A DNA stretch of 37,702 nucleotides from Propionicimonas sp. (GTDB lineage Bacteria > Actinomycetota > Actinomycetes > Propionibacteriales > Propionibacteriaceae). Positions 4,355-36,127 of this stretch are shown here, piece by piece. The stretch is from the NCBI RefSeq assembly GCF_029975155.1, contig NZ_JARKPQ010000156.1, forward strand, positions 1 to 37,702, written 5' to 3'. A program made the position numbers and the translations under genes. Numbering within the stretch: the first letter of the stretch is position 1; each line of letters opens with the position of its first letter. The notes beneath the pieces are model-generated. The model made no database searches, had not been told where the DNA came from, and saw nothing but the letters and a program-made list of their open reading frames with translations.

Positions 4355-5338
4355 CTACCCTGACAAGCCGGTCAGCCCGTAGGTCACCGCCTGCCGGGGG
4401 ACGCTCGCCAGGTCCGGCGACAGGGCGAACGGCTCAAAGGCGAGCAGCTCGGTCAGGTGCGGCTCCAGCGCCCGGCCCACCTCGACCAGGGACGGGGCGG
4501 CACCGCCCAGTTCGGCGGCCAGCGAGGTGACTCCGGCGTCGGAGATGCCACACGGCACGATCCGGCCGAAGTCGGCGAGGTCGGAGGTGATGTTCAGGGC
4601 GAAGCCGTGCATGGTGGTCTGCCGCGCCACCCGGATGCCGATCGCGGCGATCTTGCGTTCCGGACGCCCGGCGTCCGCGGCCAGCCAGACGCCGGTGCGC
4701 CCGGGCACCCGTCCGGTGGCCACGCCATAGCCGGTCAGCAGCCGGATCAGCGCCTCCTCCACGCGGCGGACGTAGTCGACGACCCCTACGCCGCGCGGCA
4801 GGAACACGATCGGGTAGCCGACCAGCTGTCCGGGCCCGTGGTAGGTGATCTTGCCGCCGCGGTCCACGTCCACCACCGGGGTGCCGTCGAAGGGACGCTC
4901 GTGCGGCTCGGTGCGCCGTCCGGCCGTGTAGACCGGCGGGTGCTCGACGTACAGCACCTGCGGGCCCAGCTCGCCGGAGGACACCTGCGCGTGCACCTCG
5001 CGCTGCAGCGCCCACGCCTCGTGGTAGTCGGTCAGCCGCCCCTCGGCAAATCCGAGGTAGCGGAAGCTGGCCAGCCGCGGGTCGGGCAGTTGCTCCCTGC
5101 CCCCAGATCCACCCATCGTCGAGCCTGTCGAGACGTGTGCCGGAGTGGCGTCGTCCTCGCGGTCGCTGCCCCCTGCCTTACCGCTCGTCGAGCTTGTCGA
5201 GACGTGTGCCGTAGCGCCCTCTTCCTCTCGCTCCGTGAGCCCGGATCCACCGATCGAGCGCGTCTCGACAGGCTCGACGAACGGTGGATCAGGGCTGAGG
5301 AGCCGCGACGAAGGAGCGGCGTCACGAAGGGCGCTCAC
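4355..5338 (-). CDS. lipB: Octanoyltransferase LipB with repeat-encoded N-terminal extension
   Basis: Transfers octanoate from acyl carrier protein to lipoyl domains, the step before LipA. The catalytic core starts at about FRYLGF and has the family motifs [14 protein letters not shown], the [10 protein letters not shown] lysine segment and the catalytic Cys in IVPCGI. Starting at GTG 5338 gives 327 residues, against about 210-250 in the family. That GTG overlaps the sucB stop (GTGA, 5335-5338) and has a GGAGGAGG sequence about 11 bases upstream, so it is the better supported start. The extra N-terminus of about 80 residues is read through three copies of a palindromic repeat and is rich in Ser, Thr and Gly. 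An internal ATG at 5116 would give 253 residues but has no ribosome-binding site and lies inside a repeat. Product assignment is sure; the start is not. Confidence 0.93.
5106..5290. repeat. Family B palindromic repeat cluster (three copies) at the lipB 5' end
   Basis: The core CGTCGAGCCTGTCGAGACG occurs at 5117-5135, again with one change (GCTTGTC) at 5186-5204, and inverted at 5261-5279. The third copy is bounded by long complementary arms, GATCCACCG (5244-5252) and CGGTGGATC (5282-5290). A fourth copy lies at 23113-23149. All three here fall within the open lipB N-terminal frame. Confidence 0.85.
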
Positions 5339-7113
5339 AGCTCGAAGTCGCCCTCCTCCAGCCGGGCCTTCACGACGCTGAGGAACCGCGCGGCGTCCGC
5401 CCCGTCCACCAGCCGGTGGTCGTAGCTCATCGACAGGTACATCATGTCGCGCACCGCGATGATCTCGCCGAGGTTCGGGTCCTTGACGACCATCGGACGC
5501 TTCACCAGCGCGCCGGTGCCGAGGATGGCCACCTGCGGCTGGTTGATGATCGGGGTGTCGAACAGCGTGCCGGCAGACCCGTAGTTGGTGATGGTGAAGG
5601 TGCCGCCGGAGAGTTCGTCCGGGGTGACCTTGTTGCTGCGGCTGCGGGCGGCCAGGTCGCCGATCTTCTTGGCCAGGCCGCTGACGCTGAGGTCGCCGGC
5701 GTCCTTGATCACCGGGACCATCAGGCCCTTCTCGGTGTCGACAGCGACGCCCAGGTGCTCGGCGTCGGCGTAGGTGATCGTGCCGGCCTCGGTGTCGATG
5801 GTGGCGTTGACCTTCGGGAACTGCTTGAGCGCCTCGATCGCTGCCTTCGCGATGAACGGCAGGTACGACAACCCGACGCCTTCGCGGGCCCTGAACGCGT
5901 CCTTCTCCTTCGCGCGGAGCTTGGAGACGGCGGTCAGGTCGACCTCGACCGTCGCGGTCAGCTGTGCGGAGATCTGCAGCGACTCCACCATGCGCTTGGC
6001 GATCGTGGCCCGGATCCGGGTCATCTTCTCGGTGGTGCCGCGCTTGCCGTCGTCCGTGCCGGCTGCGGGGGCTGCGGCCGGAGCCGGCGCCGCGGCGGGC
6101 GTGGGTGCCGGGGCAGCCGCGGCCCGTGCGGCCTCTTCCGCAGCCTTGCGCGCGGCCTCCTTGGCCGCTTCGGCCGCGGCCACGACGTCCTGCTTGCGGA
6201 TGCGTCCGCCGACACCGGTGCCGGTGATGCCTGCCAGGTCGATGCCAGCGGCTTCGGCCATCTTGCGGACCAGCGGCGTCACGTAGCCGGCGTCCGGGGT
6301 CTCCTCGGCGGCTCGCCGCGCCGGGCTCGGAGCAGCGGCCGGCGTGGGTGCGGGGCTGGGTGCCGGAGCAGGGGTCGGCGCCGGAGCCTGGGTCTGCACG
6401 GGTGCTGGCGTGGGAGCGGGTGCCGGTTCTGGTGCGGGGGCCGGCGTGGGCGCGGGTGCCGCGGCCTGAGCTGCCTGGGCCGAGCCGATCACGGCGAGCA
6501 CGGAGCCGACCGCTGCGACGCCGTCCTCCTGGACGCGGATCTCCAGCAGGGTGCCGGAGGCCGGGGCGGGGATCTCGGTGTCGACCTTGTCCGTGGACAC
6601 CTCGACCAGTGGCTCGTCCGCCTCGACCTGGTCGCCGACGCTCTTCAGCCACCGGGAGATCGTGCCCTCGGTCACGGACTCGCCCAGCTGAGGGAGCACC
6701 ACCTCTGTACCGGACGCGGCACCGGATGCGGCCGGGGGCTGCGGGGCTTCGGCCGGCGTGGACTCGGCTGCCGCGGCCTGCTCCTCCTCGACGTCCGGCT
6801 GAGCGGACTCGGCCGGGGCGGACTCCGCGGTCGGTTCGGGCTGCGGGGCGGCCGGAGCCTCGCCGTCGGCCTCGTCCGGTTCGCCGATCGTGGCCAGCAC
6901 TGCGCCCACCGGAGCGACGCCGTCCTCCTCCACGAGGATCTCGAGCACGACGCCGGCAACGGGGGAGGGGATCTCGGTGTCGACCTTGTCGGTCGAGACC
7001 TCCACCAGAGGCTCGTCGACCTCCACCCGGTCACCCACGCGCTTGAGCCAGCGGGAAATGGTGCCCTCGGTGACGCTTTCCCCGAGTGCCGGCAACGGGA
7101 CGGGAGTGGACAT
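5335..7113 (-). CDS. sucB: Dihydrolipoamide acyltransferase (2-oxoacid dehydrogenase E2, SucB type)
   Basis: Core E2 subunit that moves acyl groups from lipoyl-lysine to CoA. Order of domains in 592 residues: lipoyl domain 1 (about 1-78, lipoyl Lys43 in [11 protein letters not shown]); Ala/Pro/Glu linker; lipoyl domain 2 (about 135-212, Lys176 in the identical motif); a long Ala/Pro linker; peripheral subunit-binding domain ([17 protein letters not shown]...GGRIRKQDV); and the catalytic domain ending in SYDHRLVDG, with catalytic His566 and Asp570. ATG at 7113 has AAGGAG upstream. Although usually annotated sucB, the actinobacterial homologue next to lipB/lipA serves as pyruvate dehydrogenase E2 in M. 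tuberculosis (DlaT), so the substrate (pyruvate or 2-oxoglutarate) is open. It leads the sucB-lipB-lipA-DUF4191 operon. Confidence 0.95.
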
Positions 7114-33871: not shown

Positions 33872-34856
33872 TCAGGCCGCCTGGAACAGCAGCAGGCAGA
33901 CGGCGACCAGGGTGTTGCAGACCCAGATGGCGAACGCCGGCGGGTCGATGTGGGTGTTGCCCCTGGCGAGGAAGAGCCTCGCGGACAGTTCGCCGGCGAA
34001 GGCCGCGATGACGCCGAACACCATCCCGATGACCAGGGCGGCGATGGCGGCGCCGGGGTTCCAGCCGGCCTCGGTGATCGTCTTCGCGCCCGCCACGACC
34101 GGGTAGAACGCAACCGCGGCCAGGCCGCCGATATTGGTCATGTGGTGGGTGACCGGGGTTGCCCAGCCCATGTTCAGGAACGCGATCGTGATCGCGGAGA
34201 TGCCGAACGCGAGCGTGTTCGCCGAGCCACCGATGGACGGCAGGTGCGTGGCCAGCATGATCGACACGCCGGCCGCGAACACGCCGGCCAGGCTGCCGAG
34301 CGCGAGCAGCTGTCCCGGCTTCTCCTGGTAGCGCACCCAGCAGTTGTCGTCGCTGGGTGCGAGCTTGCCGCCGCTGGTGGCGTACTTTGCCCGGGTTGAG
34401 CAGCGAGCGGTCGCCGAACGCGTACCGGGCGACCACGGCCGACAGCACGACGGCCAGGGCGACCGAGTCGGTGTGCGCGCCGAGCCACGGGACGGCCGCG
34501 ACGCCCTGCTGGAGCAGGTAGCCGACCGCCCCGAAGAGCGCGCCGACGACCATCACGTCCGGCTTGCCCAGCTTGGCCAGCGGGGTGCCGATGTCACGTC
34601 CGGTCGGCAGGTAGCCCTTCTTCGCGGCGTACGCCGCTGCGGCCACGCCGCCGCCGAAGGCGACGTGCGGGCCGAGGAACGGGCCGAAGGCGACGTAGCT
34701 GAACATCATCGTGCTCATCGAGGGATCGCCGGCGACGGCCGCGCCGATCGCGGCGAGCAGCCCGAGGCCGACCAGCGCGAAGGCGAAGTTCGCGCCCAGC
34801 ACGGCGTCGATGAACCCGCCGCCGAGAGACGCGATGAGCATGAACAGGAACTCCAT
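33872..34856 (-). pseudogene. Polytopic membrane protein, broken by a 1-base frameshift
   Basis: The N-terminal part (MEFLFMLIASLGGGFIDAVLG... to SLLNPGK) and the C-terminal part (from VRYQEKPGQLL to LLLFQAA) lie in adjacent frames. Dropping one T of TTT at 34386-34388 joins them through GKYATSGGKLAPSDDNCWVRYQEK, giving 327 residues with a clean stop. The product would have about eight to ten Gly/Ala-rich hydrophobic helices and one polar central loop. I do not recognise the family; it looks permease-like. ATG 34856 has GGAAGAGG upstream. It lies downstream of a DeoR-type regulator and a leader ORF. The break may be true decay or a sequence error. Confidence 0.72.
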
Positions 34857-34870
34857 GGGGTCCTCTTCCT

Positions 34871-34963
34871 TCAGTGTTGAGCGGGGTTGCGCCGGCGGGG
34901 TGTGCCAGGTGCCGGGAGGTCTGTGGCGCGCATGGTCTCCCGGGTGCGATCAACGAGCCGCAT
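34871..34963 (-). CDS. Putative 30-residue leader peptide
   Basis: An ATG at 34963 with an excellent ribosome-binding site (GGGAGGAA, 5 bases upstream) opens a 30-codon frame beginning MRLVDRTRETMRATD and ending in RRRNPAQH. It stops 14 bases before the membrane protein start, whose own ribosome-binding site lies in that gap. It is rich in Arg, Pro and Thr. It could be a regulatory leader peptide or a remnant of an older gene's N-terminus. Coding is supported only by the signal strength and position. Confidence 0.45.
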   Translation of the reverse strand: MRLVDRTRETMRATDLPAPGTPRRRNPAQH

Positions 34964-34980
34964 GTGCTTCCTCCCAGACA

Positions 34981-35004
34981 GGGCCACGCCACGATGCGTG
35001 GCCC
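34981..35004 (-). promoter_or_regulatory. 5'-leader hairpin upstream of the leader ORF
   Basis: Perfect 9-base arms GGGCCACGC (34981-34989) and GCGTGGCCC (34996-35004) with a 6-base loop. In the minus-strand transcript it lies 5 bases before the ribosome-binding site of the 30-codon ORF, suiting control of translation. Confidence 0.5.
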
Positions 35005-35029
35005 CGCAACTGCGAGGAACGCTACACGA

Positions 35030-35051
35030 TTAGTGAAGCTAAGTTAGCGAA
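35030..35051. promoter_or_regulatory. Direct repeats in an AT-rich promoter-like stretch
   Basis: TTAGTGAA (35030-35037) and TTAGCGAA (35044-35051) are spaced 14 bases apart, within the AT-rich 35020-35075 stretch upstream of the membrane protein leader. This is a likely promoter and a candidate site for the adjacent DeoR-type regulator. Exact -35/-10 boxes cannot be fixed. The rest of the 35052-35152 gap shows nothing else. Confidence 0.45.
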
Positions 35052-35152
35052 TGAGAGAATATGCACGGATATGTGAAGGAAACGCGCACATGCCAACCAC
35101 CAGCGCCGTGCGGCGGCGGTGGGTGTGGGCGAGGCGGGGGACGGCGGGCGGG

Positions 35153-36127
35153 TCAGCCCATGCCGAAGCCGTGGACGATGTTGTCGCAGTGCGGGCAGGA
35201 CTGGCCACCCTTCATCTGCATCTCGATGCCCTTGGTGGGGACGAGTTCCCTGCGCGGGTGGCCGGGGACGTCGTAGACAACTCGCCAGCCACCGTCCGGT
35301 CCGAGCCCGGCGGCCATGCGCTCGCAATGCGGGCAGACCGGCTGCTCGGCCATCGTCACCGACGAACCGGCCTCGGTGATCGCGTCGAGGTACATGGTGT
35401 CGGTGCGCGGGTCGACGACGACCTCGGCGAAGTCCGACAGCGCGGCGAACCGGTGTAGCGCGGTCAGCCGCCACTTCGTGTGGTCGACCAGCAGCATGGG
35501 ACGGTTCGAGGAGGCGATCATTGCCTGCTTGACCTGGGCGACGGCGTCGTCGGGGTGGAAGCACTCGTTCCGGCTGATCCCCGCGGCCTCGATCACGCAG
35601 TGGTCGGCCCGCAGCGCAGAGATCATGTCGAGCGCCGCCCGTCCGACGAGGCACTCATCCGTCGCCTGGTACTCTCCGCCGGTCAGCAGGAGCCGCAGCT
35701 GCGGCTTCCGCTTCAGCTCGGCGGCCACCAGCAGCGAGTGGGTGATCACGGTCAGCGGCGCATCCGGCAGTGCCCGTGCGGCCATCACCGAGGTGCTGGA
35801 GCCGTCGAGGAACACGGTGCTGCCTGGCTGGAGCAGCTTCACGGCGGCCTCGGCGATCGCAGCCTTCTCCGCCGGGTGGTCCTGCGCGCCGGCCTTCGCA
35901 CTGTCCGGCGGGGTCCCGGCGGGGGACACGAGCCCGCGCTGGGAGCGGTTCACCAGCCCGGCCTCTTCGAGTGCGCCGATGTCGCGGTAGATGGTGACGC
36001 TGGAGACGCCGGTCTCGTCGGCGATCTCCTCGACGCTCACCGGGCCGCGCTCGGCCACCAACTCGGCGACCCGGCGCCGACGATTGCGAACGGTTCGCGC
36101 TGACGAACGGCCCACTCCGCCTGCCAT
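35153..36127 (-). CDS. DeoR-type transcriptional regulator with a two-CPHC C-terminal tail
   Basis: 324 residues. An Arg-rich start precedes a DeoR winged helix-turn-helix (about 18-65: RVAELVAERGPVSVEEIADETGVSSVTIYRDIGALEEAGLV). The sugar-phosphate-isomerase-like sensor domain (about 85-250) has VFLDGSSTSVMAARAL, TVITHSLLVAAEL, LLLTGGEY and MLLVDHTKW. After the normal end comes a tail of about 65 residues with CPHC at 265-268 and 311-314, a spacing that could bind one Zn2+ or similar metal. I know no DeoR protein with this tail. ATG 36127 has AAGGAG. It lies 39 bases after guaB1 and upstream of the leader/membrane protein unit. Confidence 0.9.
   Translation of the reverse strand: MAGGVGRSSARTVRNRRRRVAELVAERGPVSVEEIADETGVSSVTIYRDIGALEEAGLVNRSQRGLVSPAGTPPDSAKAGAQDHPAEKAAIAEAAVKLLQPGSTVFLDGSSTSVMAARALPDAPLTVITHSLLVAAELKRKPQLRLLLTGGEYQATDECLVGRAALDMISALRADHCVIEAAGISRNECFHPDDAVAQVKQAMIASSNRPMLLVDHTKWRLTALHRFAALSDFAEVVVDPRTDTMYLDAITEAGSSVTMAEQPVCPHCERMAAGLGPDGGWRVVYDVPGHPRRELVPTKGIEMQMKGGQSCPHCDNIVHGFGMG

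Follow-up and report, generated by a model that had tools for sequence, protein, structure and literature searches.

The DeoR/GlpR family of bacterial repressors has DeoR and GlpR of E. coli among its known members. The glycerol uptake facilitator GlpF is encoded in glp operons, and pathways for the use of threitol and erythritol are known in other bacteria. The locus described here shares its type of repressor with the first of these systems, and its membrane protein gene has relatives that stand among glycerol and tetritol-type genes.

The window, by which we mean the whole 37,702-nucleotide stretch of Propionicimonas sp. DNA that was analysed, carries the repressor gene and the membrane protein gene one after the other on its minus strand (Table 1). 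Our findings suggest, with a confidence somewhat better than even, that these genes form a two-gene unit composed of a DeoR/GlpR-type repressor and a membrane protein under its control. The repressor would bind the repeated TTCAC...GTGTA elements, whose position overlaps the probable promoter of the membrane gene, and keep that gene from being transcribed until a small polyol or sugar in phosphorylated form occupies the DeoRC domain. No Pfam or NCBIfam model describes the family of the membrane protein, which takes the place of a transporter in glycerol and tetritol-type operons and would most likely act as a small-polyol permease. The regulator itself is a selected, lineage-specific DeoR variant with a likely local target.

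Table 1. Features of the repressor and membrane protein unit, in window coordinates.
Feature	Position	Strand	Basis
DeoR-family repressor gene, 324 aa	35153..36127	-	translation; Pfam HTH_DeoR E 1.3e-8, DeoRC E 5.4e-44
C-terminal tail, residues 255-324, with C265-P-H-C and C311-P-H-C	35156..35365	-	conservation, profile matches
Second TTCAC element, TTCACATATCCGTGCAT	35061..35077	-	more TTCAC copies upstream in the three relatives too
Operator/promoter-like element, TTCACTAATCGTGTA	35023..35037	-	same place in 3/3 relatives
Leader hairpin, 9-base arms, 6-base loop	34981..35004	-	perfect arms; conserved block
30-codon ORF, judged spurious	34871..34963	-	start codon absent in 3/3 relatives
Membrane protein gene, first part, profile positions 1-161	34374..34856	-	profile match
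Membrane protein gene, second part, other frame, profile positions 155-326 (at 33875-34390)	33872..34390	-	profile match

The domain content of the regulator is clear. Pfam places a DeoR-type helix-turn-helix (HTH_DeoR, PF08220) at residues 16-68, with 34.9 bits against a cut-off of 21, and the DeoRC sensor (PF00455) at residues 84-239, with 150.4 bits against a cut-off of 31.8; the latter match covers profile positions 2-159 of 160 and hence a complete sensor domain. The description given in an earlier note on this DNA, that of a DeoR regulator carrying two CPHC motifs behind a complete sensor, is borne out by the translation for the motifs and by Pfam for the domains. In the PDB, the sole match to the regulator at E<=0.01 is 7l6l, an E. 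coli-type deoxyribose operon repressor, aligned to residues 87-243. Within the sensor, residues 129-130 read TN in five of the six tail-less proteins that were compared whole (TT in the protein from locus L025), TH in the window's regulator and TD in its three tail-bearing orthologues, and the DHTK in the region of residues 215-219 is replaced by DHTD in the three tail-bearing relatives. These changes, from TN to TH or TD and from DHTK to DHTD, could perhaps indicate that the ligand has changed.

Relatives of the regulator were sought at several taxonomic levels. A first search of genome contigs gave no match, and a second gave three loci from metagenome assemblies (HGW-Actinobacteria-5, Propionibacteriaceae SJ317 and PROP3), which were taken as the same records as genomes G008, G017 and G014 and therefore not as additional cases. 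Among 30 genomes of the genus, four have a match at E<=1e-60, the window's own included, and each of these matches extends to residue 322 or 324. In the family, a homologue is present at E<=1e-45 in 44 of 197 genomes; 31 of the 46 listed matches were examined, of which 4 carry the tail and 27 end without it. At the same threshold, 2 of 394 genomes of the class match, both from the same family (Propionibacteriaceae), and the regulator was accordingly rejected as a widespread gene.

The C-terminal tail is rarer still, as its profile matches in 4 of the 197 family genomes. Across 396 genomes of the phylum, the same profile gives the strong match of the window itself and 12 partial ones (E 0.002-0.01); with so few family genomes and otherwise partial, weak matches in the phylum, the tail was discarded as a mobile domain. 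In a tree of 31 proteins, the four tail-bearing ones form one side of a fully supported branch, a result that is consistent with a single gain of the tail and does not prove it, since the tree is unrooted.

In these four orthologues, from the window and three relatives, the tail alignment has 25 invariant columns, and all four cysteines are invariant. The first motif reads CPHC in two of the proteins and CPYC in the other two, and the second is CPHC in all four. Over the six possible pairs, dN/dS ranges from 0.27 to 0.61 in the tail and from 0.17 to 0.40 in the core, staying below 1 in 6/6 pairs, with the tail above the core in every pair. Judged by these comparisons, the tail is conserved and constrained, though faster-evolving than the core, and its invariant cysteines and dN/dS values disfavour a chance sequence. 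A partial second copy of the tail was also observed in G017 (L040, 1244-1363), directly after the stop codon of the repressor gene; it spans profile positions 29-65 (E 1.2e-7) and has one TGA within.

Part of this evidence bears on an alternative that we regard as a tentative possibility, short of even, namely that the tail, acquired once in this lineage, is an extension with a structural role or hardly any, and that the protein is an ordinary one-input DeoR repressor. Such a history would fit a tail that evolves faster than the core in all pairs, that is confined to four family genomes on one side of a single branch and that has left a partial copy behind a stop codon, and the 27 of 27 tail-less relatives examined manage without it; nevertheless, an idle extension sits poorly with four invariant cysteines, 25 invariant columns and a dN/dS below 1.

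With regard to its possible structure, the tail has two CPxC knuckles, separated by about 46 residues, that account for its four cysteines, a feature shared with zinc-ribbon domains such as Zn_ribbon_3 and Zn_ribbon_IS1595 of Pfam. It differs from these domains in that the Pfam zinc-ribbon models produce three matches of 8-11 residues each, corresponding to single knuckles, all under cut-off. A PDB profile search with the tail returned no significant zinc ribbon (the best match, at E 0.021, is another kind of protein); among its weak matches are glutaredoxins (E 0.12-0.7), aligned in the region of the CPYC motif of these proteins. Structure models were of low confidence, one built from the four sequences having a mean pLDDT of 57 (approximately 32-55 over residues 261-324) and a second one a mean of 38. 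Because Pfam and PDB gave no significant match and the model is of low confidence, the suggestion of a zinc ribbon comes from the CPxC...CPHC pattern itself, with which such a fold would be compatible.

We consider the tail to be a lineage-specific addition. It probably folds like a zinc ribbon, lending stability to the repressor or its contacts, and it may possibly have a sensing role. It is rather improbable, in our estimation, that the protein is a two-input repressor that would read a polyol phosphate through DeoRC and the zinc or thiol state through a new ribbon, with one target, a member of an undescribed family of small-polyol permeases that, in the glycerol and erythritol-type operons of Actinomycetota, takes the place of the facilitators already known. 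A literature search that covered few subscription journals found no described DeoR regulator with a zinc ribbon, a CXXC motif or a cysteine-bearing C-terminal extension.

The link between the regulator and the membrane gene is seen across the family. Of the 197 family genomes searched, 40 contain both genes, and in 34 of these they lie within 5 kb of each other; the tail-bearing regulators adjoin the membrane gene in 4/4 genomes. The earlier note had named two observations that would speak against its proposal: homologues that lack the cysteine pairs, and a tail that is rare and not linked to the membrane protein. The former is true of the distant homologues, of which all 27 examined are tail-less, and not of the four closest, which all retain the cysteines; as for the latter, the tail is indeed rare and it is nonetheless linked. 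That the downstream membrane gene is the regulator's target, as had been proposed, is likely in view of this linkage and of the operator-like element shared by the tail-bearing four.

Upstream of the membrane gene, the four tail-bearing genomes have in common CTTCACTnnTnGTGTA and a conserved leader. The AT-rich direct repeats initially singled out at 35030-35051, TTAGTGAA and TTAGCGAA, are both present in the window; what the relatives share is instead the element at 35023-35037, accompanied by a second TTCAC element at 35061-35077, and not the TTAGCGAA copy at 35044-35051. An operator pattern with 12 fixed bases, TTCACTNNTNGTGTA, was written from the four sites themselves, so it matches before the membrane gene in 4/4 genomes by construction; no further exact match occurs in those genomes. 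Allowing one mismatch yields five extra sites (one in G008 and four in G017), compared with 2-4 per genome for a reversed control pattern. Given that 12 fixed bases are expected to produce few chance matches, the uniqueness of the pattern weighs little, and the single match fits a dedicated target without proving one.

The TTCAC motif has 13 copies when the intergenic regions of the four genomes are taken together, whereas 1000 shuffles averaged 1.7 and never exceeded 7; for the window alone, its two copies are equalled in 22 of 500 shuffles. Among tail-less relatives, 6 of the 19 regions analysed contain a related TTCACA...TGTTA element, compared with a mean of 0.03 and a maximum of 2 after shuffling, this being a pattern picked after inspecting the regions, 8 of the 27 having been dropped where no start codon was recognised. 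A scan for sigma-70 promoters of -35/-10 consensus and a terminator scan found nothing.

The leader between the two genes was the basis for a more elaborate proposal, in which the membrane protein would come under joint transcriptional and translational control through a repressor that responds to metal or redox state, together with a hairpin and a leader peptide that is translated. The present results make this very improbable, even though some of its components are found. The cysteine pairs are kept in 4/4 orthologues, the perfect hairpin exists as described and its block is conserved, and the 30-codon ORF is preceded in the window by GGGAGGAAGCAC, a good ribosome-binding site. However, the ATG of that ORF uses bases absent from 3/3 relatives, none of which starts at that place, so that the ORF is taken as spurious, probably a chance one, and control through this leader peptide is rejected.

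Against joint control there is also the hairpin, whose covariation is equalled by 146 of 500 shuffles. Across the four sequences, 7 of its 8 pairs are invariant, and the eighth varies and is paired in two of the four. Perfect hairpins with 9-base arms give 7 overlapping matches at four sites of the window versus 3-5 in each of five shuffled windows; the hairpin alone is therefore unremarkable, and its weight derives from sequence conservation in the three relatives. Rfam offers no match in the window at gathering scores, nor in L039 and L040 at E<=1, and a known RNA element was set aside on these grounds. On this alignment, the hairpin is a leader element conserved in sequence, without convincing covariation.

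In a larger consensus fold of the leader, both partners change in 3 of the 43 pairs. When the leaders of L039, L040, L041 and the window are folded together, CCTTCA near the leader's 5' end pairs with TGAAGG, which lies at the membrane gene's ribosome-binding site. Of these six pairs, two hold in 4/4 sequences, and the outer four are complete in a three-relative majority or fewer. This pairing could possibly mask the ribosome-binding site.

A different extension of the two-gene unit, which we judge unlikely, is a wider regulon in which the membrane protein is one of several targets. Candidates are the HAD-FGGY-G1PDH genes on another contig of the window's genome (G000; L126, 8098-11891, minus strand), 75-84% identical to the G173 operon. 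They have TTCACCACGATGCTACGGT upstream, and in tail-less relatives the repressor and the pathway genes are part of one operon. Nevertheless, the site at the HAD genes shares little past TTCAC, and G000 contains no second match to the operator pattern, even at one mismatch. Furthermore, a search at E<=1e-20 found no G1PDH match in three of the four tail-bearing genomes (identity in their best RpiB matches is 43-46%), and the contig may be a contaminant, contamination of the assembly being estimated at 8.31%.

The condition of the membrane gene in the window raises a further alternative. The gene starts at 34856 on the minus strand, downstream of the regulator as the earlier note had stated, but it is divided between two frames, with the change located within 34374-34390, whereas it forms one frame of 327 codons in 3/3 relatives. 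The frame change, which itself counts against the two-gene reading, may be a sequence error or decay. It is somewhat unlikely, in our view, that the unit is decaying in the window's strain, with a broken membrane gene and a working unit in the relatives only: the contrast with the single frame of the relatives points that way, but one frame change in an assembly of 404 contigs may be a sequence error, both parts of the gene keep high scores (303 and 281 bits) and the repressor gene has an unbroken frame.

For intact versions of the membrane protein, taken from L039 and L042, searches of Pfam and NCBIfam gave no family at E<=0.01, and the window's first part alone gives weak matches to FUN14 (E 0.7) and CrgA (E 0.12). 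In L042 (5727-13001) and L043, the gene order is DeoR, RpiB-like isomerase (TIGR02133), membrane protein, HAD phosphatase, FGGY kinase, a gene for an enzyme like glycerol-1-phosphate dehydrogenase (G1PDH) and transketolase, and in shorter loci of the family the order DeoR-RpiB-membrane protein-HAD recurs. Based on its gene content, we regard the arrangement of L042 and L043 as a candidate tetritol (erythritol) operon. Likewise, at 24-6966 of L143 (G008), glpK and glpA are followed by a paralogue of the membrane protein (4692-5624) and then by glpC, a glp locus that suggests the unnamed membrane family may be a glycerol permease.

Similar associations extend to plasmids. On a Microbacterium plasmid (L141, 1850-6780), a hypothetical protein from this membrane family is found with glpK, an epoxide hydrolase and a haloalcohol dehalogenase between transposases, and a Rubrobacter plasmid (L142) combines DeoR, a relative of the membrane gene, transketolase, HAD and FGGY kinase. 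Out of 18 distant membrane-gene loci, 6 have GlpK, 3 have tetritol-type genes and 9 are without any queried gene over a distance of ~1.5 kb; one of the three tetritol-type loci, L110, matches L142 in its values and is probably the same record, to be counted once. At the tail-bearing loci of the four genomes, no polyol genes were found, which, like the 9 distant loci without a queried gene, counts against the permease model. Because relatives of the protein sit in glycerol (glpK-glpA-glpC) and tetritol-type operons, we infer by association that it is most likely a small-polyol permease. The literature search mentioned above, with its coverage of few subscription journals, found no glycerol permease of this kind.

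A section of a 2015 study of P. freudenreichii states that erythritol pathway genes were not found and that the pathway was not reconstructable (PMC4437456). The operon of the tail-less relatives represents a candidate for erythritol use in Propionibacteriaceae.

Compared with the known systems, the unit presents both shared and distinct features. As with D-erythrulose-4-phosphate/tetritol operons (DerI, NF051858), the tail-less relatives have an RpiB-like isomerase, an FGGY kinase and a dehydrogenase beside the membrane protein; such genes are absent from the window's locus, and the RpiB-like isomerase scores 140 with NF051858, under the cut-off of 240, its best model being TIGR02133. As with GlpF in glp operons, the membrane-protein paralogue of G008 stands among glpK, glpA and glpC, but none of the intact membrane proteins examined has a counterpart among the Pfam and NCBIfam models, those of GlpF and the aquaporins included. 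Judged by its gene neighbours, the membrane protein is a candidate glycerol or tetritol permease without a named family, the more useful by-product of this analysis and the part most worth testing. Finally, the regulator has HTH_DeoR and the complete DeoRC sensor in common with E. coli DeoR and GlpR and differs from them by about 65 added residues with two CPxC motifs, which would make it a natural case of a sugar repressor acquiring a possible metal or thiol input.
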